Origin: Vibrio coralliirubri
GTDB lineage: Bacteria; Pseudomonadota; Gammaproteobacteria; Enterobacterales; Vibrionaceae
DNA: 64,000 nucleotides
Assembly (NCBI RefSeq): GCF_024347375.1
Contig: NZ_AP025471.1
Span: 1,798,001-1,862,000, forward strand
Direction of reading: 5' to 3'
The translations under genes and the position numbers were made by a program. Shown here in pieces: positions 6,713 to 41,230 of the stretch (positions are counted from its first letter, which is position 1; every line of letters starts with the position of its first letter). The notes beneath the pieces are model-generated. The model made no database searches, was not told the origin of the DNA, and saw nothing but the letters and a program-made list of their open reading frames with translations.

Positions 6713-6991
6713 TCAATCCATTGGGAACTTTTGTTTCTGGTGGAGTACGCGCATAATTCGGATAACGTCGCCTTCTATCCAATAGGAGACGATCATTGAA
6801 ATCTCAGGAATTATAAGTAATCGTCCACGAATGCCGTCTCTCTGTACACCCATTAGAGGCTGCTCAAGCAAGTTTTCTACTTTTGTTTCAATGAGGTTGT
6901 CAGCGTTCTCTGCCGCATCAGGGTTGAAGTCATAGATAAACTCAAAGATCCTTTCACGATCATTGAGTGATTCTTCTTCCCATAAAATCAT
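6713..6991 (-). CDS. Type II toxin, RelE/ParE family
   Basis: 92 residues with the compact RelE/ParE fold pattern: ILWEEESLNDRERIFEFIYDFNP, then PLMGVQRDGIRGRLLIIPEISMIVSYWIEGDVIRIMRVLHQKQKFP. Family members either cleave ribosome-bound mRNA (RelE) or poison gyrase (ParE); the sequence alone does not decide. The start codon overlaps the stop of the antitoxin gene by 4 bases (ATGA), the usual translational coupling of these pairs. Confidence 0.88.
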   Translation of the reverse strand: MILWEEESLNDRERIFEFIYDFNPDAAENADNLIETKVENLLEQPLMGVQRDGIRGRLLIIPEISMIVSYWIEGDVIRIMRVLHQKQKFPMD

Positions 6992-11450: not shown

Positions 11451-12272
11451 TCAGTGCGCAACGCACAGCTTTTCTTCGAGTAATTGATCAAGCACTGTCA
11501 CCAGCTTTTGGTTCTTGGTGTTGTCTAATGCGTCAGCGTGCGGGTCTTTGAACAACCCAGAATCATTATCAAAATATTTACCGGAAGCGTTGGCAAACTC
11601 ATCACTGAACGCAGCACGACAAAGAATATCGGCACCAATCGCTAGATCGTTTCCATCAACGCCATAAGCATCTTTTACTAATTTACTGCCAAGGAAAGAG
11701 GCTGGGTTTACAGGGATAATTGCGGTGCCTTTGTCTAAAAGACTATTGGCTAATTCGATGGACCACATCGTTAGTGCGAGCTTACTTTGCGCGTAAACCG
11801 GACCATCAAGTTCACCCGCATTCGGGCTAATCAATGCATCTAAATCGACGGGGGCTTGGGCTGCTGAAGATAGGTTGACGATACGACCTGTCGCATCAAA
11901 AAGAGGAAGCAGCTTTTTTGTCAGTAGATACGGCGCAATGGTGTTTACGACAAAACGCACATCAAGATTGTCTGGAGTGGTGATGTCCGACACCTTATAC
12001 ACACCTGCGTTGTTAATGAGTATATCGAGTCGTTTGTGATCGCTTTTGATTTGGGTTGCGAGCGCCTCAACTTCAGAGAGCGTCGATAGGTCTGCGATGT
12101 AGCTTTCGATGATTGCATTCTTAGACAGGCGAGACAAAGCGGTCACGACTTTATTGACCTTAACTGGGTTGCGGCCATGAATCAGAACATGGTGCCCTTG
12201 TTGCGTTAGTGCTTTTGCGGTCTCTAAACCAATGCCATCCGTGGCACCTGTGATCAGAATTATTTTTTGCAT
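11451..12272 (-). CDS. Short-chain dehydrogenase/reductase (copy A)
   Basis: 273 residues. Classic SDR motifs: TGATDGIG for NAD(P) binding near residue 7, NNAGVY near the middle, catalytic Ser in VNLSSAAQ and YAQSK as the active-site Tyr/Lys. The start is ATG 12272 with AAGGACGGAAT before it; an upstream extension has no ribosome site. It is a clear paralogue of the SDR at 47891. The substrate is unknown. Confidence 0.87.
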   Translation of the reverse strand: MQKIILITGATDGIGLETAKALTQQGHHVLIHGRNPVKVNKVVTALSRLSKNAIIESYIADLSTLSEVEALATQIKSDHKRLDILINNAGVYKVSDITTPDNLDVRFVVNTIAPYLLTKKLLPLFDATGRIVNLSSAAQAPVDLDALISPNAGELDGPVYAQSKLALTMWSIELANSLLDKGTAIIPVNPASFLGSKLVKDAYGVDGNDLAIGADILCRAAFSDEFANASGKYFDNDSGLFKDPHADALDNTKNQKLVTVLDQLLEEKLCVAH

Positions 12273-12439
12273 ATTCCGTCCTTCAAAAAATAGTTTGAAC
12301 AACGTTATAACAAAGATTAATGACACATAGTTGCATTTGGCTCACAAGCTGAAGACTCAAATGTGAGTCTATGGGGCAAATAATGACCATTTTAACACTT
12401 GGTGGTTAACCGTTGGCGTTTAACGATTAAGTAAGACAA

Positions 12440-12462
12440 TGGGTCAGTTTGTGGCTGACCCA
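12440..12462. terminator. Stem-loop after the enoyl-CoA hydratase gene
   Basis: An 8-bp stem TGGGTCAG / CTGACCCA with a 7-base loop, 21 bases past the stop on the minus strand. There is no strong T-run, so the call is weak. Confidence 0.45.
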
Positions 12463-12482
12463 AATTAAGAGAAGTGACCGAG

Positions 12483-13328
12483 TTATTTGATGTCTTGAAC
12501 GTTCATAACCAGAGTTTCCCAGTTACGTTGGTTTTCCATATCGTGCTCTAGGCCTTGCTCATCGGCAATTTGGAAGCGCTTAACCGCAGGGGTTTTGCTC
12601 GTAGCTTGATACAACCAGTAAGCTTCCGCTTTGAGTGCTTCGTCGATCGGTTTATCGATAGACTCATACACCGCTTGCTTACATGCATTGATCGATTCAG
12701 CAGGGAATTTTGAGATTCGTTTGGCAAGCGTATCAACATATTCGCCAATTTCATCCGGCTCTAGTGCCTTGTTGATGGTGCCGTATGCTTCGGCTTCGTC
12801 AGCATCAAAGTCTCGTGCACTTAGGACGATTTCGAGTGCGCGACCTAAGCCGACTTGGCGTGCCATGCGTGATGCACCGCCACCACAAGGAAGGATGCCC
12901 ATACCTACTTCCATTTGCATGAATTTGTATTTACCGCGAGCCGCGAATCGCATGTCACACGCCAGTGCAAATTCGTGGCCTCCACCTCGAGCGAAGCCTT
13001 CAAGCTTGGCAATGGTGGCTTGTGGCAGTTTGCTGATTCTTTCCAGCACCACTTGCAGGTCGAGTAACTTCGCTTCTTCACGAGAAACGGCTTCTGTCGA
13101 CATGTCTTTTAATAGATTGGTGTCGTAGTGACAGACCCAAACTTCAGGGTTTGCTGACTGAAATACCACGACCTTGATGTCACGATCGCGCTCTAGTCTC
13201 ATCGCTAAACCATTGAGGTCGGCAAGCATTTCTTGCCCTTGAACATTCACAGTACCGAAGTCAAAAGTGACGGTAAGAATCCCATCCTCGGCTTGAGCTT
13301 TAAACGTCGTATAACCTTGATATGCCAT
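12483..13328 (-). CDS. Enoyl-CoA hydratase/isomerase family protein
   Basis: About 281 residues. The crotonase fold is seen in KLEGFARGGGHEFALACDMRFAARGKYKFMQMEVGMGILPCGGGASRMARQVG (oxyanion-hole glycines and helix, here broken by the 20-residue limit into AKLEGFARGGGHEFALACD and MGILPCGGGASRMARQVG). The catalytic glutamates of true hydratases are not securely placed, so isomerase or hydrolase activity is equally possible. AGAAGGA is 8 bases before ATG 13328; an ATG at 13334 is also in frame but too near the site. It diverges from the MATE gene. Confidence 0.8.
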   Translation of the reverse strand: MAYQGYTTFKAQAEDGILTVTFDFGTVNVQGQEMLADLNGLAMRLERDRDIKVVVFQSANPEVWVCHYDTNLLKDMSTEAVSREEAKLLDLQVVLERISKLPQATIAKLEGFARGGGHEFALACDMRFAARGKYKFMQMEVGMGILPCGGGASRMARQVGLGRALEIVLSARDFDADEAEAYGTINKALEPDEIGEYVDTLAKRISKFPAESINACKQAVYESIDKPIDEALKAEAYWLYQATSKTPAVKRFQIADEQGLEHDMENQRNWETLVMNVQDIK

Positions 13329-32344: not shown

Positions 32345-33457
32345 TTAATGGCGGAGAGACAAAGTGATGAAGTGAACTCTGTTGGTTGAATAGCTGCCAG
32401 AAGGCTGAAATAGTCCAGAGTCAGCATTAATTTCACCATGGCCTAAATCTTGGTATTGGTAGCTCAATCCTAGATGTAAGTCATTGGATATCTTCTTCTC
32501 AGCGCCGAACCCGATACGCCACTGTTTATCGAGTGGAAGTAACACATCTCTGTTTTGACTGCTTACTGGGCTCGTGTCACCGCTCACTCCGCTGTACAGC
32601 AACCAATCCTCATATGCGTATTCCACACCAACCCCAAGAGAGTAGGTGGTTGAGTATTTGTCATCATAATCTTGCCATGTCTCCATGTTGGAGCTGAGTA
32701 GAAGGTTTAAGTCTTCATTTAATGAATGCTTCAACCCTAAGTTTAAGCTTCGAACCCACGTCAGTTCAGAGCTAATTCCAAAAGCGTTGGCGGTATCAAG
32801 GGAAAGGTCGTGATCAAATTGGCCCTGATAACTGACACCCAATTGTGTGTTGTCACTGATGTGGTGATTGAGACTCAGGCCGAACCCTAGATCAAGGCTA
32901 TCCCCTTGAAGTTCCCGACCATTCAAAGCTTGGGTTTCAAGCGCAGCGTGCTGCAATATCAAAGAACTACCAAGAGACAGTTGTTCATTGACCTGATATG
33001 ACAATGACGACGTTAAGTTGAGTGCCGAAATGCTATTTTCTTTGATTAATAAAGCAGGGTGAGCGCCAACGCCGTGTGAGTATTCAACGCCAGTGCCGCC
33101 AGCTGCGTGCAATGCTGCGCCGACGACCCATTGGTCATTTAACCTTGATGCGTAAGACAGGTGAGGGAGAATATCGGCGCTGCTTCCTGTGGTCGACGCC
33201 GAGTTATCGTCACGGACAAAAGTGGTTTCAACATCGAGGTATTGAACGCCGAGAATCCAAGCGCTTTCTTCAATGGCCGATAACCCCGCAGCGTTGGTGA
33301 TCACTGCGGATGCATCGTTCGCGGTTACGTTTCCTGCGCCTGCTGTGCCAACGCTTTTGGTTGTCGCAATCTGAGATAGATTTAACCCTCCCGCATGAGC
33401 AAGAGAGCCGACTATCCCTGTTACTAACAGAGACAGTGTGATGAAAGGTGTTTTCAA
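32345..33457 (-). CDS. OmpP1/FadL family outer-membrane channel
   Basis: 370 residues. The signal peptide (MKTPFITLSLLVTGIVGSLAHA) is followed by the FadL-type hatch (GGLNLSQIATTKSVGTAGAG, VTANDASAVITNAAGLS) and then a beta-barrel of alternating strands ending in the C-terminal aromatic/HFITLSLRH. FadL-family barrels take up hydrophobic compounds. The start is TTG 33457 with GAGG 8 bases upstream. It follows the DUF1254 gene on the same strand by 140 bases, so they are probably one unit. Confidence 0.88.
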   Translation of the reverse strand: MKTPFITLSLLVTGIVGSLAHAGGLNLSQIATTKSVGTAGAGNVTANDASAVITNAAGLSAIEESAWILGVQYLDVETTFVRDDNSASTTGSSADILPHLSYASRLNDQWVVGAALHAAGGTGVEYSHGVGAHPALLIKENSISALNLTSSLSYQVNEQLSLGSSLILQHAALETQALNGRELQGDSLDLGFGLSLNHHISDNTQLGVSYQGQFDHDLSLDTANAFGISSELTWVRSLNLGLKHSLNEDLNLLLSSNMETWQDYDDKYSTTYSLGVGVEYAYEDWLLYSGVSGDTSPVSSQNRDVLLPLDKQWRIGFGAEKKISNDLHLGLSYQYQDLGHGEINADSGLFQPSGSYSTNRVHFITLSLRH

Positions 33458-33597: not shown

Positions 33598-34998
33598 CTA
33601 GAGTTTTTCAACTTGTGGCAGTGGGTATTCATTGTCGAGAACAGCTTGAGTTGGCTCATACAGGCGCATGTGAAGATAGAAGTCATCTTGAGGTGCTGGT
33701 AGCCAGTTACACGTTGGATCAGACGGTTTTACGTATTGAATGCATATTGGCAAGGTGCCGTCTTCTGCGTATTTCAGCTCATCTTTACGATTGGTTGAGA
33801 TGGAGTAACGTTGAATGAAGTTCTCAACCATGAACAGGTTTTTAGCGTCGTACATGGTCAAAGACCAAAAGGCGTCAGCGGGTGCATCGGCAGGCATGGT
33901 CATTCGATATTGATTGTCTCCCGACAGCTGCTCACCATTCGAGTCCGTGTATCGATTTGGGTAGAGTGCTCGCTCTGGCACATTCAAGCCAGCCGCACGC
34001 ATATTGATGCTCGCTCGGCTCAGGTAATCATTTCCGTAACGGCCACCCTCGTACATCATCGACCAGCCATTATTGACATCACCGATGCTTCGACCTGCGT
34101 ATTGAATGATCTGTTGTGAAGACTCAATCGCGCGCATTAGCCCTTTTTTCTGTGCTGAAGTTAGCGCTTCAGGGTTAAAGGGGGTCGATCCTCCAATACC
34201 AATTTGTTGGAATTGATCAACGATGGCTGCATCTTCTGGAATCGGGTTTTTACGTAGCTCACGGTCAATCAATGAATACCACTCTAACCCTTCAGGCCTC
34301 GCCATGGGTGGGATGCGACCTGTCGAAGCTTTAAGTTCTACGATGTCATGCTCTGCGCCGAGTTGATCGAGTGGGTAGCTGAGGAATTTATCGTGAGTAA
34401 CCAATGCGTCATTGAGATCTTGCTCGCCAAATACGCCCGTTCGTTGAATTAACCAAACCATAGGAGTGCGAGACTCTACGACACGATCAATCCCCTCTGG
34501 CACTTCGCCAGCCCATCCTTTGTTGACCAAAAGCACTTTTGAACCTTGGTCGCCGACATTCTTCACGTGCAGATCTTCAATTGAATCTGAGTAAGCATCC
34601 AATAACTGAACAATGTAATAGCGGTTATCGGTGCGAGGAATATCAATCACCATTGGACCTGACAAATCCAGATCGTAGTGAGCTTGTGAATAGAGCGTAT
34701 CGTTGTTGACGGTAGGTACAATTCTATCCTGAGGTCCGGATAGAACGCGTGTTTTACCCATCTCATTCAATGGTGCCATGGCGTTGTCCATCGGTGCATC
34801 AACAGATGTGGTCGTTTGCCTAACCGCCGCCACGGTTAATGGGCCTGTACCATAAATAAATGCTTGAACACCGAGATTGTAAGCGAGCTCTTCTTCAGGA
34901 TTAATAGATTGTTGGGCAAGGGATGGCATCGCGATAATACTGGACAAAGAACACACTAAACTGGTCAGTACACTTTTCTTATAGAGGAGCTTTCTCAT
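33598..34998 (-). CDS. DUF1254/DUF1214 domain protein, secreted
   Basis: 466 residues. A signal peptide (about 1-28, LVCSLSSIIAMPSLAQQ) sends it to the periplasm. The DUF1254 region (VPTVNNDTLYSQAHYDLDLS, VIDIPRTDNRYYIVQLLDAY) is followed by a DUF1214 region (FWSLTMYDAKNLFMVENFIQ, ending CNWLPAPQDDFYLHMRLYEP). The biochemical role of these domains is not established. AAGGTG precedes the ATG. It diverges from the sulfatase maturase with a LysR-type box between and is paired with the FadL channel. A broken second copy lies at 39781. Confidence 0.88.
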   Translation of the reverse strand: MRKLLYKKSVLTSLVCSLSSIIAMPSLAQQSINPEEELAYNLGVQAFIYGTGPLTVAAVRQTTTSVDAPMDNAMAPLNEMGKTRVLSGPQDRIVPTVNNDTLYSQAHYDLDLSGPMVIDIPRTDNRYYIVQLLDAYSDSIEDLHVKNVGDQGSKVLLVNKGWAGEVPEGIDRVVESRTPMVWLIQRTGVFGEQDLNDALVTHDKFLSYPLDQLGAEHDIVELKASTGRIPPMARPEGLEWYSLIDRELRKNPIPEDAAIVDQFQQIGIGGSTPFNPEALTSAQKKGLMRAIESSQQIIQYAGRSIGDVNNGWSMMYEGGRYGNDYLSRASINMRAAGLNVPERALYPNRYTDSNGEQLSGDNQYRMTMPADAPADAFWSLTMYDAKNLFMVENFIQRYSISTNRKDELKYAEDGTLPICIQYVKPSDPTCNWLPAPQDDFYLHMRLYEPTQAVLDNEYPLPQVEKL

Positions 34999-35068
34999 GG
35001 AACACCTTAGATCGTAGGAACAGAATTAGGCATTTATCATATGAGCAAGTGAGATTAAGGAGTGTAAT

Positions 35069-35097
35069 AGCCGATATTAAGGATGTTAATAGTCGCT
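35069..35097. promoter_or_regulatory. LysR-type box 1 (DUF1254 / sulfatase maturase gap)
   Basis: A 29-base element with blocks AGCC, TATTAAG, TAATAGT and GCT and a T-N11-A core ATTA-N7-TAAT. It matches box 2 at 37347 at 23 of 29 positions. It lies 71 bases before the DUF1254 start and 144 bases before the maturase start. Confidence 0.78.
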
Positions 35098-35240
35098 TTT
35101 TGCCTTTCAAGTGATTGTTTTAATTAACATTGATTTAGGTTGGTGAAGCGACTCTACGACGTGTGCAGATAGGGTGCTTGAGGCGCTATTGTTTGATTGA
35201 TTTTCGGTTGATATGTTGGCAAAAAAGTACGGGAATCGAT

Positions 35241-36392
35241 ATGAACACATCTACTTATCCTTTTAGCTTATTCATTAAAGCAGAAGGAGCTCAGTGCAAT
35301 CTGGATTGTAGCTACTGCTATTATCTCAATAGACAAGATGTCGATAAGAGGTCTTCAATGTCTTTGGACATGATGGAGCAAATTGTCGGTGCTCATATCG
35401 ACGCGCAGCCAATGAAAGATCAGCAAGTGGACTTTATCTGGCATGGTGGCGAGCCTATGTTAAGAGGGCTCGATTTCTATGAAGCTGCGATGAAAGCGCA
35501 GGCAAACAAAGCGACAACCAAGCTGGTCGTGAATACGATGCAGACTAATGGAACCATGATTAACGATCGCTGGGCGAGTTTCTTTGCTAAACACAATTTC
35601 ATGATGGGCATCAGTATCGACGGGCCCAATATTCTGAATGACATCGCTCGGATCGACAAAAATGGCGAGTCGTCTTTTGAACGCACAATGCGTGGGATGT
35701 CTTACCTAAAGAAGCACAATGTTGATTTTAATACGTTAACGGTCGTGAACAATAAAACCTACAAACACGGTAAAACGATCTATCAGTTTTTGGTTGAAAA
35801 TGGCAGTGGTTACATGCAGTTTCAGCCTTGTATCGATCATGAGTTAGACAGACGAACAGGGCATGATTGGTCGTTAACCGGTGAGCAATGGGGGCAATTT
35901 CTTTGTGACTTGTTTGATGCATGGAGCGCCAATGATGTCGGTAAAGTGTATATCCAGTTTTTTGAAAACTGTTTAATGGTGTTGATGGGTTACCAAAGCC
36001 AAATGTGTCATCACAGCGCGACTTGTGGACAGCAATTAATGGTTGAGCATGACGGCAATGTTTACAGTTGTGACCATTATGGGTATCAAGATCATCAATT
36101 GGGCACCATGAACAGTGATAAGCTTGCAACTATGGCGAGCTCACCAGAACAAATCGCGTTTGGCACCAACAAATATGATGAGTTAAACAGCACTTGTCGA
36201 CGTTGCGATTTTGTTGAACTCTGCCAAGGTGGTTGTCCTAAAAACAGAATAGCAACAACCGAAGATGGCAGTCCGATGAATCATTTATGCCAAGGGTATG
36301 AGATGTTTTTTCGTCACGCATTACCCAAATTATTGCCTATGGTAGAAGCGATGAAAAAAGGGTATTCGCCAGCGTACTTTCCACTTTTCTAA
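35241..36392 (+). CDS. Anaerobic sulfatase maturase, radical SAM/SPASM
   Basis: 383 residues. The radical SAM cluster is C19-X3-C23-X2-C26 (AQCNLDCSYC) and the C-terminal SPASM cysteines are present (CRRCDFVELCQGGCPKNR). Such enzymes (anSME, AtsB) convert an active-site Ser or Cys of a sulfatase to formylglycine in the cytoplasm. The sulfatase at 37491 has the matching Ser-type motif, so it is the expected substrate. ATG 35241 follows GGGA; the extension from 35163 has no such site. The LysR pseudogene follows by 17 bases. Confidence 0.92.
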   Translation: MNTSTYPFSLFIKAEGAQCNLDCSYCYYLNRQDVDKRSSMSLDMMEQIVGAHIDAQPMKDQQVDFIWHGGEPMLRGLDFYEAAMKAQANKATTKLVVNTMQTNGTMINDRWASFFAKHNFMMGISIDGPNILNDIARIDKNGESSFERTMRGMSYLKKHNVDFNTLTVVNNKTYKHGKTIYQFLVENGSGYMQFQPCIDHELDRRTGHDWSLTGEQWGQFLCDLFDAWSANDVGKVYIQFFENCLMVLMGYQSQMCHHSATCGQQLMVEHDGNVYSCDHYGYQDHQLGTMNSDKLATMASSPEQIAFGTNKYDELNSTCRRCDFVELCQGGCPKNRIATTEDGSPMNHLCQGYEMFFRHALPKLLPMVEAMKKGYSPAYFPLF

Positions 36393-36409
36393 ATCATTTG
36401 GAGTAGGGC

Positions 36410-37305
36410 ATGACCAAAGACCTAAACTTACTGCGGCTCATTTTGGTGCTTAATGAGACTCGTCAAACGGTGAGTCTCATTAAGCCTTGAACGTAAGTCA
36501 GCCGACGATCAGTGTCATGCTTCGTAAGCTCAGAGAACAATTTGATGATGAGTTGTTTGTTCGAGATAAAGCAAGGCTTGAACCCACCCCAAAATGCTTA
36601 AAGCTTATCGAAACCTTGCCTCTGCTATTAGAACAGTTAGATAACCTTTACATACCCAATGATGAGTGGGGGTTGGAAGATTTAAGAGGGGAGGTTCAAA
36701 TCATGTTGCCTTCCCCGCTGTTGATCCCAGTGGGTGTGCCACTAATCAAAAAGCTGACCAAAGAAGCGCCGCAAGTGACGTTTCAATGCTCACCTTGGTT
36801 AGATAACGGCGTCCAGTCCCTAGAGACCAACCGAATGTGTTGGGGAGTGAGCTATCTTCCTATGGACGTCAATAAAACCCTGACTGAACGCCCAGTTGGC
36901 TTTGATAAGTTCATGTTGGTGCTAAGAGCTGACCACCCAATTCAAGGTAATTCCCTTGAGGACATTCTGAAATACCCACTCTGTATCAATATGATCCCTG
37001 GTTACATTCAGCCGTCCAAGACGGAAATGTTGATCAAAAAATACGACTTAGATAAACACATCGGGCTCAGAAGCAACAATATGAATTTGATGCTAGAAGT
37101 CGTTAAAGACAGCGACTTCATCTATGTAACATCGTCGAAATGCCGCTATTTGCTTGATCACTCTTATCGTTGTATCGACTTACCGCCGGAACTGTTGAAA
37201 GACACCTATCGTCGAGAATTGGCACTGTTTACTCATCAAGCAAACCGCAATAACCCGTTCACGGATTGGCTTCAAAAAGAAATTACGTCGATTATTCAAT
37301 CCTAG
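36410..37305 (+). pseudogene. LysR family regulator, frameshifted
   Basis: The start ATG 36410 has GGAG 7 bases upstream and encodes a normal LysR N-terminus (MTKDLNLLRLILVLNETRQT) but stops at TGA 36488 after 26 codons. The rest of the helix-turn-helix and the whole sensor domain (ALNVSQPTISVMLRKLREQF onwards) continue in another frame from about 36484. One A lost from the AA at 36482-36483 explains it: restoring it gives KALNVSQPTIS and a protein of 298 residues, normal for the family. A sequencing error is possible. It sits between the maturase and the sulfatase, the expected targets. Confidence 0.85.
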
Positions 37306-37346
37306 TGTCACGCTACTATTCCCTTTAAATAACTCCCCTTTCTAAC

Positions 37347-37375
37347 AGCCACTATTAAGAATCGTAATAGTGGCT
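37347..37375. promoter_or_regulatory. LysR-type box 2 (upstream of the sulfatase)
   Basis: Arms AGCCACTATTA and TAATAGTGGCT are perfect 11-base inverted repeats around a 7-base spacer, containing T-N11-A. There is no T-tail, so it is not a typical terminator. It lies 116 bases before the sulfatase start and matches box 1. Confidence 0.78.
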
Positions 37376-37490
37376 ATCAAGCCATTTTGGGCCTCTTTCT
37401 TATACCATTTATCTCAACAATGGTTCGCTGAGACATGCACAATTTTCGTTGTGACTTCAGCGATTTACTCATAGTGAATGAGGGTTATAA

Positions 37491-39029
37491 ATGTATAAGT
37501 CTTTTGTTAAATCCGCTCTGGCGCTTTCGGTACTGGCGAGCGTCAACGTACATGCAGCGAGCCAACCCAATGTGGTTGCCATCATGCTCGATGATGTTAG
37601 CCCAACGGATCTGTCTGCCTACCACCGCGGCTTAGGCGCGGTGGATACGCCGAACATTGATAGAATTGCCGAACGCGGCATGATGGTCAGCGATTACTAC
37701 GCACAAGGCAGCTCTACCGCGGGGCGCTCTGCCTTTATCACGGGTCAATATCCTTTCCGAACAGGCTTAACGTCTGTCGGTCAGCCGGGCTCTTCACTTG
37801 GCCTTCAAAAAGAAGATCCAACCTTAGCCGAAATGTTGAAAGACAAAGGCTATGCGACCGTGCATGTCGGTAAAAGTCACCTAGGCGATAACAATAGCCA
37901 CCTGCCAACGGTGCACGGCTTTGATGAATTCTTCGGTTTCCTTTACCACCTCAATGTTATGGAGATGCCTGAACAGCCGGAATTCCCAACAGACCCTAAC
38001 TTCAGAGGTCGCCCTCGTAATGTTCTTCACACTGTCGCTACCGAGAGTGTGGACATGCAAGAAGGCCCAAGATTTGGTGTGGTTGGAAAGCAAACGATTG
38101 AAGATAAAGGTCCTTTAGGCGCTAAACGCATGCAAACCGTCGATGGCGAATTTTTGGAGTTTGCTACAAATTGGCTTGATAGACATGAAGCGGAGAAAGA
38201 CGAACAACCTTACTTCATGTGGTACAACCCAACTCGTATGCACCAAAAAACGCACGTACGTCCGGAATATCAAGGCGCGAGCCAAATCAACACCTACTAC
38301 GATGGCTTGATCGAACTGGATGACCAGATCGGTGTGCTGCTCGACAAGCTTGAAGATTTAGGTGAAATTGACAACACCATCATTCTCTTCACCTCTGACA
38401 ATGGCGTAAACCTAGATCACTGGCCTGATTCCGGCTCCGCATCATTCAGAGGACAAAAAGGCACGACATGGGATGGCGGTTTCCGTGTGCCTATGCTGGT
38501 CAGCTGGCCAGATAAAATCCCTCAAGGTGAATACACCGATGGCTTCATGACTTCTGAAGACTGGGTGCCAACCATTATGGCTGCAGTGGGTGAAGGCGAC
38601 ATTAAGCAAGAACTGCTTGATGGAAAAGAGCTAAACGGCGAGCGTTATCAGGTCCATTTGGATGGTTATAACCAGCTGGATATGTTGACCAAAGGCGAGC
38701 CGAGTCAACGTCATGAGTTCTTCTTCTACAACGAGCAAGATTTGAATGCGTTCCGAGTTGATGATTGGAAAGTGCACCTAAAAACCAAAACGGAGTGGAT
38801 TGCGCCTCCTGAAGAGTGGCCACTAGGGATGCTTGTTAACATCAAGGCTGATCCTTATGAGCGTAGCCCTGATACTCGTGGTTGGTTCTTATGGATGAAA
38901 GAGAAGTCTTGGGTATTACCAAAGCTGCAAAAATCAGCGGCGGAATATCAGAAGTCACTCAAAGCGTTTCCACCAAGACAGAAAGCCGGTGGTATTGGTA
39001 TGGCAGACAAATCAGTGGTTGCTGACTAG
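37491..39029 (+). CDS. Secreted sulfatase, Ser-type (formylglycine-dependent)
   Basis: 512 residues. A signal peptide ends near residue 23 (NVHAAS). The modification motif is S75-T-A-G-R79, the serine variant handled by anaerobic-type maturases. Metal and substrate residues fit the family: D34 D35 at the start, K128 and H130 (VGKSHLGD), and TSDNGVN. It hydrolyses a sulfate ester in the periplasm or outside the cell; the substrate (aryl, sugar or other) is unknown. The maturase gene is 1.1 kb upstream. It begins the unit with the barrel protein at 39091. Confidence 0.92.
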   Translation: MYKSFVKSALALSVLASVNVHAASQPNVVAIMLDDVSPTDLSAYHRGLGAVDTPNIDRIAERGMMVSDYYAQGSSTAGRSAFITGQYPFRTGLTSVGQPGSSLGLQKEDPTLAEMLKDKGYATVHVGKSHLGDNNSHLPTVHGFDEFFGFLYHLNVMEMPEQPEFPTDPNFRGRPRNVLHTVATESVDMQEGPRFGVVGKQTIEDKGPLGAKRMQTVDGEFLEFATNWLDRHEAEKDEQPYFMWYNPTRMHQKTHVRPEYQGASQINTYYDGLIELDDQIGVLLDKLEDLGEIDNTIILFTSDNGVNLDHWPDSGSASFRGQKGTTWDGGFRVPMLVSWPDKIPQGEYTDGFMTSEDWVPTIMAAVGEGDIKQELLDGKELNGERYQVHLDGYNQLDMLTKGEPSQRHEFFFYNEQDLNAFRVDDWKVHLKTKTEWIAPPEEWPLGMLVNIKADPYERSPDTRGWFLWMKEKSWVLPKLQKSAAEYQKSLKAFPPRQKAGGIGMADKSVVAD

Positions 39030-39780: not shown

Positions 39781-41230
39781 ATGATGAAAAAAAACATTCT
39801 TGCGGCAGCACTGGCTTGTGCTTTCATGGTTGCACTTCCATCTCCGGTACTCGCGAGCCAATCCGTGGACGCGACCAGCGCAGCTGTGGCAACAAAAACA
39901 GCAATGGGGATAAAAACGGAAACTCTCCCCGTTGAGATGGCGAGTTTAGCGTCGCTCAAAAAGGATAATCAGTTATTGGCACAACTTGCCTACGAATACG
40001 CGTACTCGATAGATGAAGCCTACAAATACTTTTACAAAACCGTCGTTGAGCAAGACTACCCTTTGAATCGATTCCAAAATATTCGAATACTTGCTGACGA
40101 CACTTACACTGCGCATCCGACGATTAACAATGACACGTTACACTTGATGGGTTGGATGGACCTAGCGGCAGAGCCGGTCATCATTACGATTCCAGACCAT
40201 GATGAAAATCGATACTGGTTGTTCCATACCATGAATATGCAGCACTTTACTGACTCGGCTTTTGGCTCTCCACAGCGAGGCACAAAAGGCGGCAGCTTCA
40301 TGTATGCAGTTGAAGGGTGGAAAGGTGAAGTGCCTGCGAGTGTCGACCAAGTCGATCTATGTCGAGCATCCGCTGGTCAAGATGATGGGTCGAATTATGG
40401 ACCTTGGTGGTGACGATTCTGCAACTGCTCAAAAGTTAATGGATCAATGGAATATTAGGACATTGTCGGAATACTTAGGTCAGAAAGGGCCAGATCCTGT
40501 TGAGCGCGAGTATCCAGCCCCTGAAGACTCTAATTGGGTCCAGCGAACCAATTTCATTTTGTCTGAAGGAACAATGAAGGCGCATGACCAAAAGCTGCTT
40601 GAACTGTTCGAGTACATTGGCTTAGGAGATGTTGAATTAGGCAAAACCAATCATCCATTTACGAAAGAGCAGCTTAGTATGATCGAGTCCGGTCAAAAAG
40701 ACGGACTGGAACAAATTATTAATGCGGGCTTTGATGATTCATGAGACGTATTGGGCTCTCGCGATGAAATGACCAAGGTTCCAAGCTTTCAACACGCCTA
40801 CGGCACCTTAATGGGCCAATGGGGGTTGCCTGCAAAGCACACTATGTATAGCGGTGACTTCTTTGATAGCGAAGGTGCTGCGCTCGATGGTAGTAAGTAT
40901 GACTACACGGTGACCTTCGATGCGCCACCGCTAGAAGAGGGTGGTTTTTGGTCATACACGGCCTACAGTGGTGAAACCCGATTGATGGAGAAAAATGGCT
41001 TAAACCGTCACTCCCGTGGAGACAGAACGCTAACGCCTAATGCTGATGGCAGCTACACCATTTACATGAGTAGCGATGTAAAAGGACATGAAGATGATCC
41101 TAACTTCTTACCTATCCCCGATCATCAATGGTATTCAGTGTTACGTATGTACACGCCCGGTGAAGAGGTAAGAACAGATAAATGGAAATCGACACCATTT
41201 ACCAAGGTCAAAAAATCCACGATAAAGTGA
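39781..41230 (+). pseudogene. DUF1254/DUF1214 protein, frameshifted and with an in-frame stop
   Basis: The N-terminal part (signal peptide MMKKNILAAALACAFMVALP, then DUF1254) runs in one frame to about 40353. The homologous sequence then continues one base on (IYVEHPLVKMMGRIM from 40355), as if an extra G at 40354 was gained. A TGA at 40742 interrupts that second frame; the DUF1214 part then resumes (GSRDEMTKVPSFQHAYGTLM) to 41230. Repaired, the protein would be about 482 residues. Homologues suggest a tryptophan where the TGA lies, but this needs checking. The related intact gene is at 33598. Confidence 0.85.

Follow-up and report, generated by a model that had tools for sequence, protein, structure and literature searches.

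The stretch of DNA considered here, referred to as the window, comprises 64,000 nucleotides of Vibrio coralliirubri (NZ_AP025471.1, positions 1,798,001 to 1,862,000) and lies on contig 2 of a two-contig 5.74-Mb genome. It carries a sulfatase locus with a gene for a LysR-type regulator, and it is this locus, together with the DNA elements that the regulator is predicted to bind, that we describe. Judged by the sulfatase/LysR locus, the nearest named relatives are Vibrio tasmaniensis, Vibrio sp. 14G-20 and V. splendidus. To the left of the first of these elements (operator 1) a DUF1254/DUF1214 gene (DUF1254A) and a FadL-like gene are read from the minus strand, and to its right follow, in order, the maturase, LysR and sulfatase genes:

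32345 to 33457, minus strand: FadL/TodX-like outer-membrane transporter, downstream of DUF1254A (Pfam PF03349)
33598 to 34998, minus strand: DUF1254A, DUF1254/DUF1214 protein of 466 residues, predicted target 1 (Pfam PF06863, PF06742)
35241 to 36392, plus strand: anaerobic sulfatase maturase (radical SAM/SPASM; NCBIfam TIGR03942)
36410 to 37305, plus strand: LysR-type regulator, its frame broken in the helix-turn-helix segment, remaining open frame 36487-37305 (Pfam HTH_1, LysR_substrate)
37491 to 39029, plus strand: sulfatase of 512 residues, open frame, predicted target 2 (Pfam PF00884; PDB arylsulfatases)

The maturase clears the TIGR03942 equivalog cut-off for the anaerobic sulfatase-maturating enzyme, anSME (479.8 bits against 349.45). 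The sulfatase scores 186.6 bits to PF00884, and its translation contains SSTAGR, which we take to be the C/S-x-P/A-x-R motif of formylglycine-type (S1) sulfatases. The LysR protein scores 32.9 bits to PF00126 (HTH_1; cut-off 26.6), from profile position 23 onwards, and 36.8 bits to PF03466 (cut-off 28). Compared with named NCBIfam regulators (LeuO, BsrA, YidZ and others), it falls far below the cut-offs of all 12 listed families, the best being LeuO with 43.8 bits (cut-off 262), and its relatives in the PDB, LysR-type regulatory proteins, are weak (best E about 1e-6).

A first-pass annotation of the window had noted two matching 29-bp boxes, one between the divergent DUF1254A and maturase genes (35069-35097, box 1) and one before the sulfatase gene (37347-37375, box 2). 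The boxes do agree at 23 of 29 positions, and the perfect inverted repeat claimed for box 2 is likewise borne out, its arms being identical at 11 of 11 positions as against 8 of 11 in box 1. Twenty-three is the best match of any 29 bases between the two intergenic regions, and it was reached in none of 2000 dinucleotide shuffles (mean 17.9, maximum 22). Allowing up to three mismatches, the joint 29-base pattern occurs in the 5.74-Mb genome at the two boxes only (at box 2 also on the other strand) and its reversed control nowhere, so that a motif common throughout the genome, which the same annotation had held to speak against its proposal, was not encountered. The bare core TATTA-N7-TAATA is found at chance level in the genome (nine sites, ten for the reversed control) and was for this reason dropped as a regulon marker.

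The further statement that nothing else in the window shares the pattern was mistaken: a third palindrome, GATTAAGGAGTGTAATA, lies at 35053-35069, 22 bp from the core of box 1. The sequence ATTAANRANNNTAATAG is present without mismatch exactly three times in the genome, always at this locus (35054-35070, 35076-35092 and 37354-37370), so that box 1 is better described as two near-copies set at a distance of 22 bp. When one mismatch is allowed, this sequence gives 33 genome matches against 35 for the reversed control, and no wider regulon beyond the three exact sites can be claimed in this genome. As a unit, the 29-bp box stands only in part: its TATTA and TAATA blocks are kept in relatives, whereas the 3' end of box 1 (CGCT) is variable. 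The box was therefore mis-framed, part of the match of 23 positions is coincidental, and we no longer treat it as the operator unit.

What is conserved is instead an operator that has a direction, TATTA-N7-TAATA-N5-TAT, and is followed 22 bp downstream by a second half-site, box 1 being oriented to DUF1254A-FadL and box 2 to the sulfatase:

35036 to 35041, minus strand: TATGAT, putative -10 for DUF1254A-FadL, at 50 bp from the operator start (at least 4/6 to TATAAT in all 11 close sequences)
35053 to 35069, minus strand: second (putative activation) site of operator 1, a near-copy 22 bp closer to DUF1254A (GATTA and TAATA unchanged in 11 of 11)
35075 to 35091, minus strand: recognition palindrome TATTA-N7-TAATA of operator 1 (core of box 1), facing DUF1254A (both blocks constant in all 11 divergent regions aligned)
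37353 to 37369, plus strand: recognition palindrome of operator 2 (core of box 2, whose full arms span 37347-37357 and 37365-37375), facing the sulfatase (TATTA and TAATA unchanged in 11 of 11)
37375 to 37391, plus strand: degenerate second (putative activation) half-site of operator 2, beginning TATCAAG, 22 bp downstream (TAT at +22 in 11 of 11 close sequences)
37403 to 37408, plus strand: TACCAT, putative -10 for the sulfatase, at 50 bp from the operator start (at least 4/6 matches in 11 of 11 close sequences)

Throughout the close group, which includes the window, the TATTA and TAATA blocks are retained in 11 of 11 divergent regions (as GATTA at the 35053-35069 site, site 1a) and in 11 of 11 LysR-sulfatase regions, and each operator keeps its +22 half-site and its +50 hexamer in all 11. 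No good -35 was found by eye for the DUF1254A-FadL promoter. For the sulfatase promoter, TATACC (37401) had been an earlier -10 candidate and was replaced by TACCAT after the alignment of 34 sites described below.

The perfect 11-base dyad of box 2, situated 41 bases past the lysR stop, could also be taken for an RNA hairpin or terminator following lysR, with box 1 as a chance look-alike. We regard this as highly improbable and reject it: no long T run comes directly after box 2, the dyad of box 1 is imperfect, and sites of this kind are met again 5' of genes at other loci, in a fixed direction and with the +22 half-site outside any hairpin.

The first-pass annotation had also placed the maturase under the control of box 1, and this part of its proposal was not upheld. 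Operator 1 faces DUF1254A, and the maturase and lysR genes have a separate promoter about 100 bp away, outside the operator, with invariant or nearly invariant columns in the alignment:

35189 to 35217, plus strand: conserved sigma-70-like promoter TTGTTT-17-TATGTT of maturase-LysR

A -10-like hexamer at +50 is present on the DUF1254A side in 11 of 11 close sequences; on the maturase side it is present in none of the 11 for site 1a and in three (the window and loci L010 and L011) for site 1b, and none of the 11 has TAT at +22 after site 1b in that direction. On this geometry, together with the separate conserved promoter, operator 1 was rejected as the element driving the maturase, on which it could still act at a distance. 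Matters differ in the distant relatives introduced below, where in eight of the nine loci showing both (L086, L087, L088, L092 and L094-L097; the exception is L085) the maturase gene follows that of the sulfatase in the same orientation and can therefore be co-transcribed and co-controlled with it.

The same arrangement bears on the possibility that the sites are operators of this LysR acting as a repressor, or only as an autoregulator. Recognition sites of LysR-type transcriptional regulators (LTTRs) often serve repression and autoregulation (PMC8407307). At this locus, by contrast, the recognition palindrome lies upstream of the target promoter with the second half-site in the -35 place, and some 100 bp separate the operator from the promoter of maturase-LysR. 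Repression or autoregulation as the sole function consequently seems unlikely to us.

When oriented to their target genes, 34 sites align as TATTA-N7-TAATA-N5-TAT, three pairs among them (window, L013, L015) coming from the close group and not being independent. T at offset 2 and A at offset 14, which form a T-N11-A within an interrupted dyad, are found in 34 of 34, the sites having been chosen for their resemblance to the palindrome. Counts were made on a set of 30 sites in which the window's pair alone represents the close group: the window's two, 16 of the 26 palindromes with at most one mismatch from distant loci of the genus, and 12 found through a composite pattern. TAT begins exactly at +22 in 29 of these 30; the composite pattern contains CTAT, so that the count is not free for its 12 sites, and among the 18 found without it TAT is present in 17 (the exception is L085). 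A -10-like hexamer (at least 4/6 to TATAAT) stands exactly at +50 in 15 of 30 sites, as compared with nine at the next-best offset and a maximum of nine in shuffles, none of 2000 reaching 15. Ten palindromes were excluded (L085 4418, L088 1332 and 1497, L089 8214, L091 5837, L093 5768, L094 12870, L097 2171, 2186 and 5446) because they do not precede a sulfatase or DUF1254 start or, for L088 1497, because it is itself a second site; three of them (L085 4418, L089 8214, L094 12870) lack a TAT at +22 in the orientation drawn. With the +22 half-site occupying the place of the -35, the layout would be that of an activator-dependent promoter.

The distant loci come from a search of the genus in which this LysR (E up to 1e-40) was found in 30 of 227 genomes, 16 of them close (81-100% identity) and 14 at 38-57%; this genome set overlaps with that of the close-locus search, and the contigs L018 and L021 belong to a single genome. 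It is the distant relatives that settle the question. In them the operator is seen again ahead of sulfatase and DUF1254 genes whose neighbouring LysR is only 40-57% identical. Around the LysR genes of the 14 distant genomes (177,014 bases) there are 14 exact palindromes, 12 of which fall in the 200 bp preceding sulfatase or DUF1254 starts, stretches that make up 2.2% of these bases. Allowing one mismatch, 16 of 21 such starts have a site, against a mean of 0.69 and a maximum of three in 300 sets of shuffled windows. In L095 and L097, where the LysR is 40-42% identical, its gene is flanked by those of DUF1254A and the sulfatase, and there is a site on either side of it. In one genome (G004) sites are also borne by two DUF1254 genes that lie some 60 kb from the LysR, as unlinked targets would. 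Two further exact palindromes, L094 12870 and L088 1332, show TAT at +22 on the minus strand by eye; the former faces an HlyD-like, membrane-fusion-type gene (11467-12519) and the latter an outer-membrane porin-like gene (3-1058), both gene guesses also made by eye. Located 270-350 bp away, these genes are possible further members of the regulon.

At the level of the order, a search of 295 genomes sampled from a larger group found the LysR in 11, five of them from four other families. The pattern is clear in L142 (sulfatase and DUF1254) and L144 (DUF1254A), weaker in L143 (at a DUF1254 gene, with three composite mismatches) and L141 (ahead of a FadL-like gene), and no clear site was seen in L145 or L146. 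The LysR operator and a small sulfatase-DUF1254 regulon reaching beyond the genus are very probably bona fide.

Which protein goes with the sites can be approached through co-occurrence. With presence scored at the above LysR threshold among the 11 best candidates per genome and at E up to 1e-150 among the six best for the sulfatase, the 227 genomes divide into 27 with both, three with LysR alone, one with sulfatase alone and 196 with neither. The exact composite pattern gives 41 matches in 27 genomes (reversed control, five), of which 35 fall on the close group's two operators or, elsewhere, ahead of a sulfatase or DUF1254 gene; the other six, for which 1.5 kb on each side was compared with the window's genes, have no homologue of these within that distance. 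By genome, the pattern is present in 20 of 30 with the LysR and seven of 197 without it.

These figures are also the test of the view that the sites belong to another, unlinked regulator, the LysR being merely a neighbour. In its favour, one of the seven genomes without the LysR (G208) keeps operator 1 in spite of having lost LysR and sulfatase, four loci with a LysR of this group lack a clear site (detailed below), and the sites of the present strain persist despite a broken LysR. As a separate observation on the G208 locus (L084, 3198-5655), the match to DUF1254A passes into the end of FadL and that to the maturase into the second DUF1254 gene, and neither LysR nor sulfatase has a match. What speaks against an unlinked regulator is the co-occurrence itself (27-3-1-196) and the skew of 20/30 against 7/197, the more so as the hits of six of the seven non-LysR genomes are the ones with no such homologue in the 1.5 kb compared and are close in number to the five of the reversed control. 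Moreover, the sole genome with the sulfatase but no LysR (G135, locus L130) has the sulfatase, maturase and DUF1254 genes and no site near them, with one weak match (three composite mismatches, one in the palindrome) 2.7 kb from a DUF1254 start, and the T-N11-A dyad and 22-bp pair are LTTR-like. We therefore consider an unlinked regulator quite improbable. The layout of L095 and L097, the siteless L130 and the skew between genomes with and without the LysR agree with the core of the first-pass proposal, one LysR-type operator common to DUF1254-FadL and the sulfatase and tied to one LysR.

We thus favor, with a probability of roughly 85%, the reading that both boxes serve as operators for a single LysR-type activator of the sulfatase and DUF1254-FadL, the product of the lysR gene that lies between the boxes. 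A LysR dimer would occupy the high-affinity palindrome TATTA-N7-TAATA as its recognition site, and the second dimer of a LysR tetramer would bind, as the activation site, the half-site whose start lies exactly 22 bp further downstream (some two helical turns), covering the place of the missing -35, with the -10 at 50 bp from the first base of the operator. Once bound to an effector, possibly related to a sulfate ester or its product, the LysR would recruit RNA polymerase leftwards to DUF1254A-FadL and rightwards to the sulfatase, while maturase-LysR would be read from its separate, ordinary promoter. Sequence, conservation, geometry, co-occurrence and the broken frame are what we observed; from them we infer binding, the tetramer, activation and the effector, activation specifically from the recognition-plus-activation geometry of LTTRs. 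In these regulators a T-N11-A dyad serves as the recognition site and is accompanied by a second activation site (PMC11739112, PMC8407307). The present operator shares the dyad and the second, promoter-proximal site with LTTR activators, and differs in being very AT-rich, in the fixing of the second half-site at exactly 22 bp, and in that lysR of the close group is placed behind the maturase and is not directly divergent from its target.

Several observations weigh against this reading and should be set beside the evidence above. Within a single sequence the tandem is modest at site 1 (equalled in 32 of 2000 shuffles), and for region 2 even the best self-tandem lacks significance (460 of 2000). 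Exceptions to the +50 rule make up 15 of the 30 sites, namely all nine DUF1254A promoters outside the window, the sulfatases of L085, L087 and L142, the DUF1254 genes of the 31-32% kind (L086, L143) and L141. Five of the 21 distant target starts have no site with at most one mismatch: two are sulfatases (L090, L091) behind a DUF1254 gene that bears a site, two (L092) have two-mismatch sites only, and one (the second DUF1254 gene of L097) has none. The four loci with a LysR of the group but no clear site are L093, L098, L145 and L146; no sulfatase or DUF1254 gene was seen near the first three, and the sulfatase of L146 is just 30% identical. Sites and LysR adjoin, so that co-occurrence is by itself no proof of contact, and a LysR can also repress from such sites.

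In the present strain the regulator itself seems to be defective. Its frame has 272 residues aligned to relatives with one codon upstream of them, whereas nine close relatives (L010-L017, L020) have at least 27 in frame at this point, and it is without the start of HTH_1. The open frame comes to 273 residues, as compared with 299 or more in the 14 other close copies that each lie on a single contig (the copy of G164 is in two pieces). Against L010 (95% DNA identity over 13.2 kb), frame-changing insertions or deletions occur, among the genes covered, only in LysR and the second DUF1254 gene, and the same two genes are affected against the more distant L011 and L017; a few alignments also show them in a nitroreductase-like gene, FadL and DUF1254A (L011) and in the nitroreductase-like gene (L017). 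The LysR is thus probably frameshifted inside its DNA-binding domain and the regulon uninducible in this strain, the loss of that domain from an activator leaving both promoters uninducible with their operators intact; an assembly error may have produced the break.

Following the sulfatase are a 225-residue protein without Pfam match, the second DUF1254/DUF1214 gene, a flavin mononucleotide (FMN) oxidoreductase and a HAD phosphatase. The second DUF1254/DUF1214 gene (39781-41230) is divided between frames 39781-40413 and 40751-41230, and in L010 one match spans it. Loci L010 (13444-14256) and L018 (6225-7037) encode a second LysR, 29% identical, beside another DUF1254-type gene downstream of the oxidoreductase, and in L019 (V. 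renipiscarius, 6840-6880) a short tandem repeat of cataatagccaaaa units lies between maturase and LysR.

Regulators of a comparable kind have been described. SftR of Pseudomonas putida is reportedly a LysR-type regulator of sulphate ester metabolism, and is likened to ours, as a LysR-type regulator tied to sulphate ester use, by description and not by sequence; we know of no maturase or DUF1254 partnership of SftR. SdsB1 of Pseudomonas aeruginosa is said to be of LysR type and encoded beside the alkyl sulfatase SdsA1, and so shares with the present locus a LysR gene adjoining a sulfatase; SdsA1 is an alkylsulfatase of another fold that needs no formylglycine maturase. HdfR of Escherichia coli is also a LysR-type regulator. 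It affects the anaerobic sulfatase-maturase homologue aslB, an effect that is reported as indirect, with no gel shift on the aslB promoter (PMC2984483). Among the matches listed in our literature searches there was nothing on this LysR or its site, and no paper in the library searched has both DUF1254 and sulfatase. The system is known in kind, and its operator and regulon are, as far as these searches show, newly delineated in detail.

Taken more broadly, the data lean somewhat towards an unnamed LysR subfamily which, with its directional 27-bp operator, would define a small regulon of sulfatase, maturase, DUF1254/DUF1214 proteins and FadL-type porins in Vibrio and in further families of the order, of which two are clear cases (L142, L144) and two weak ones (L141, L143). 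Its target promoters would have exchanged the -35 for a second half-site, DUF1254 proteins would take their place in the use of lipophilic sulfate esters, and the regulon would be in the course of being lost in parts of the splendidus group, with the LysR broken here and both arms truncated in G208. An exact and testable operator and promoter layout is now given for this regulator, and the uncharacterised DUF1254/DUF1214 and FadL-like proteins are linked to sulfatase metabolism in marine bacteria. The layout further predicts which strains would be able to induce the sulfatase and which would not.

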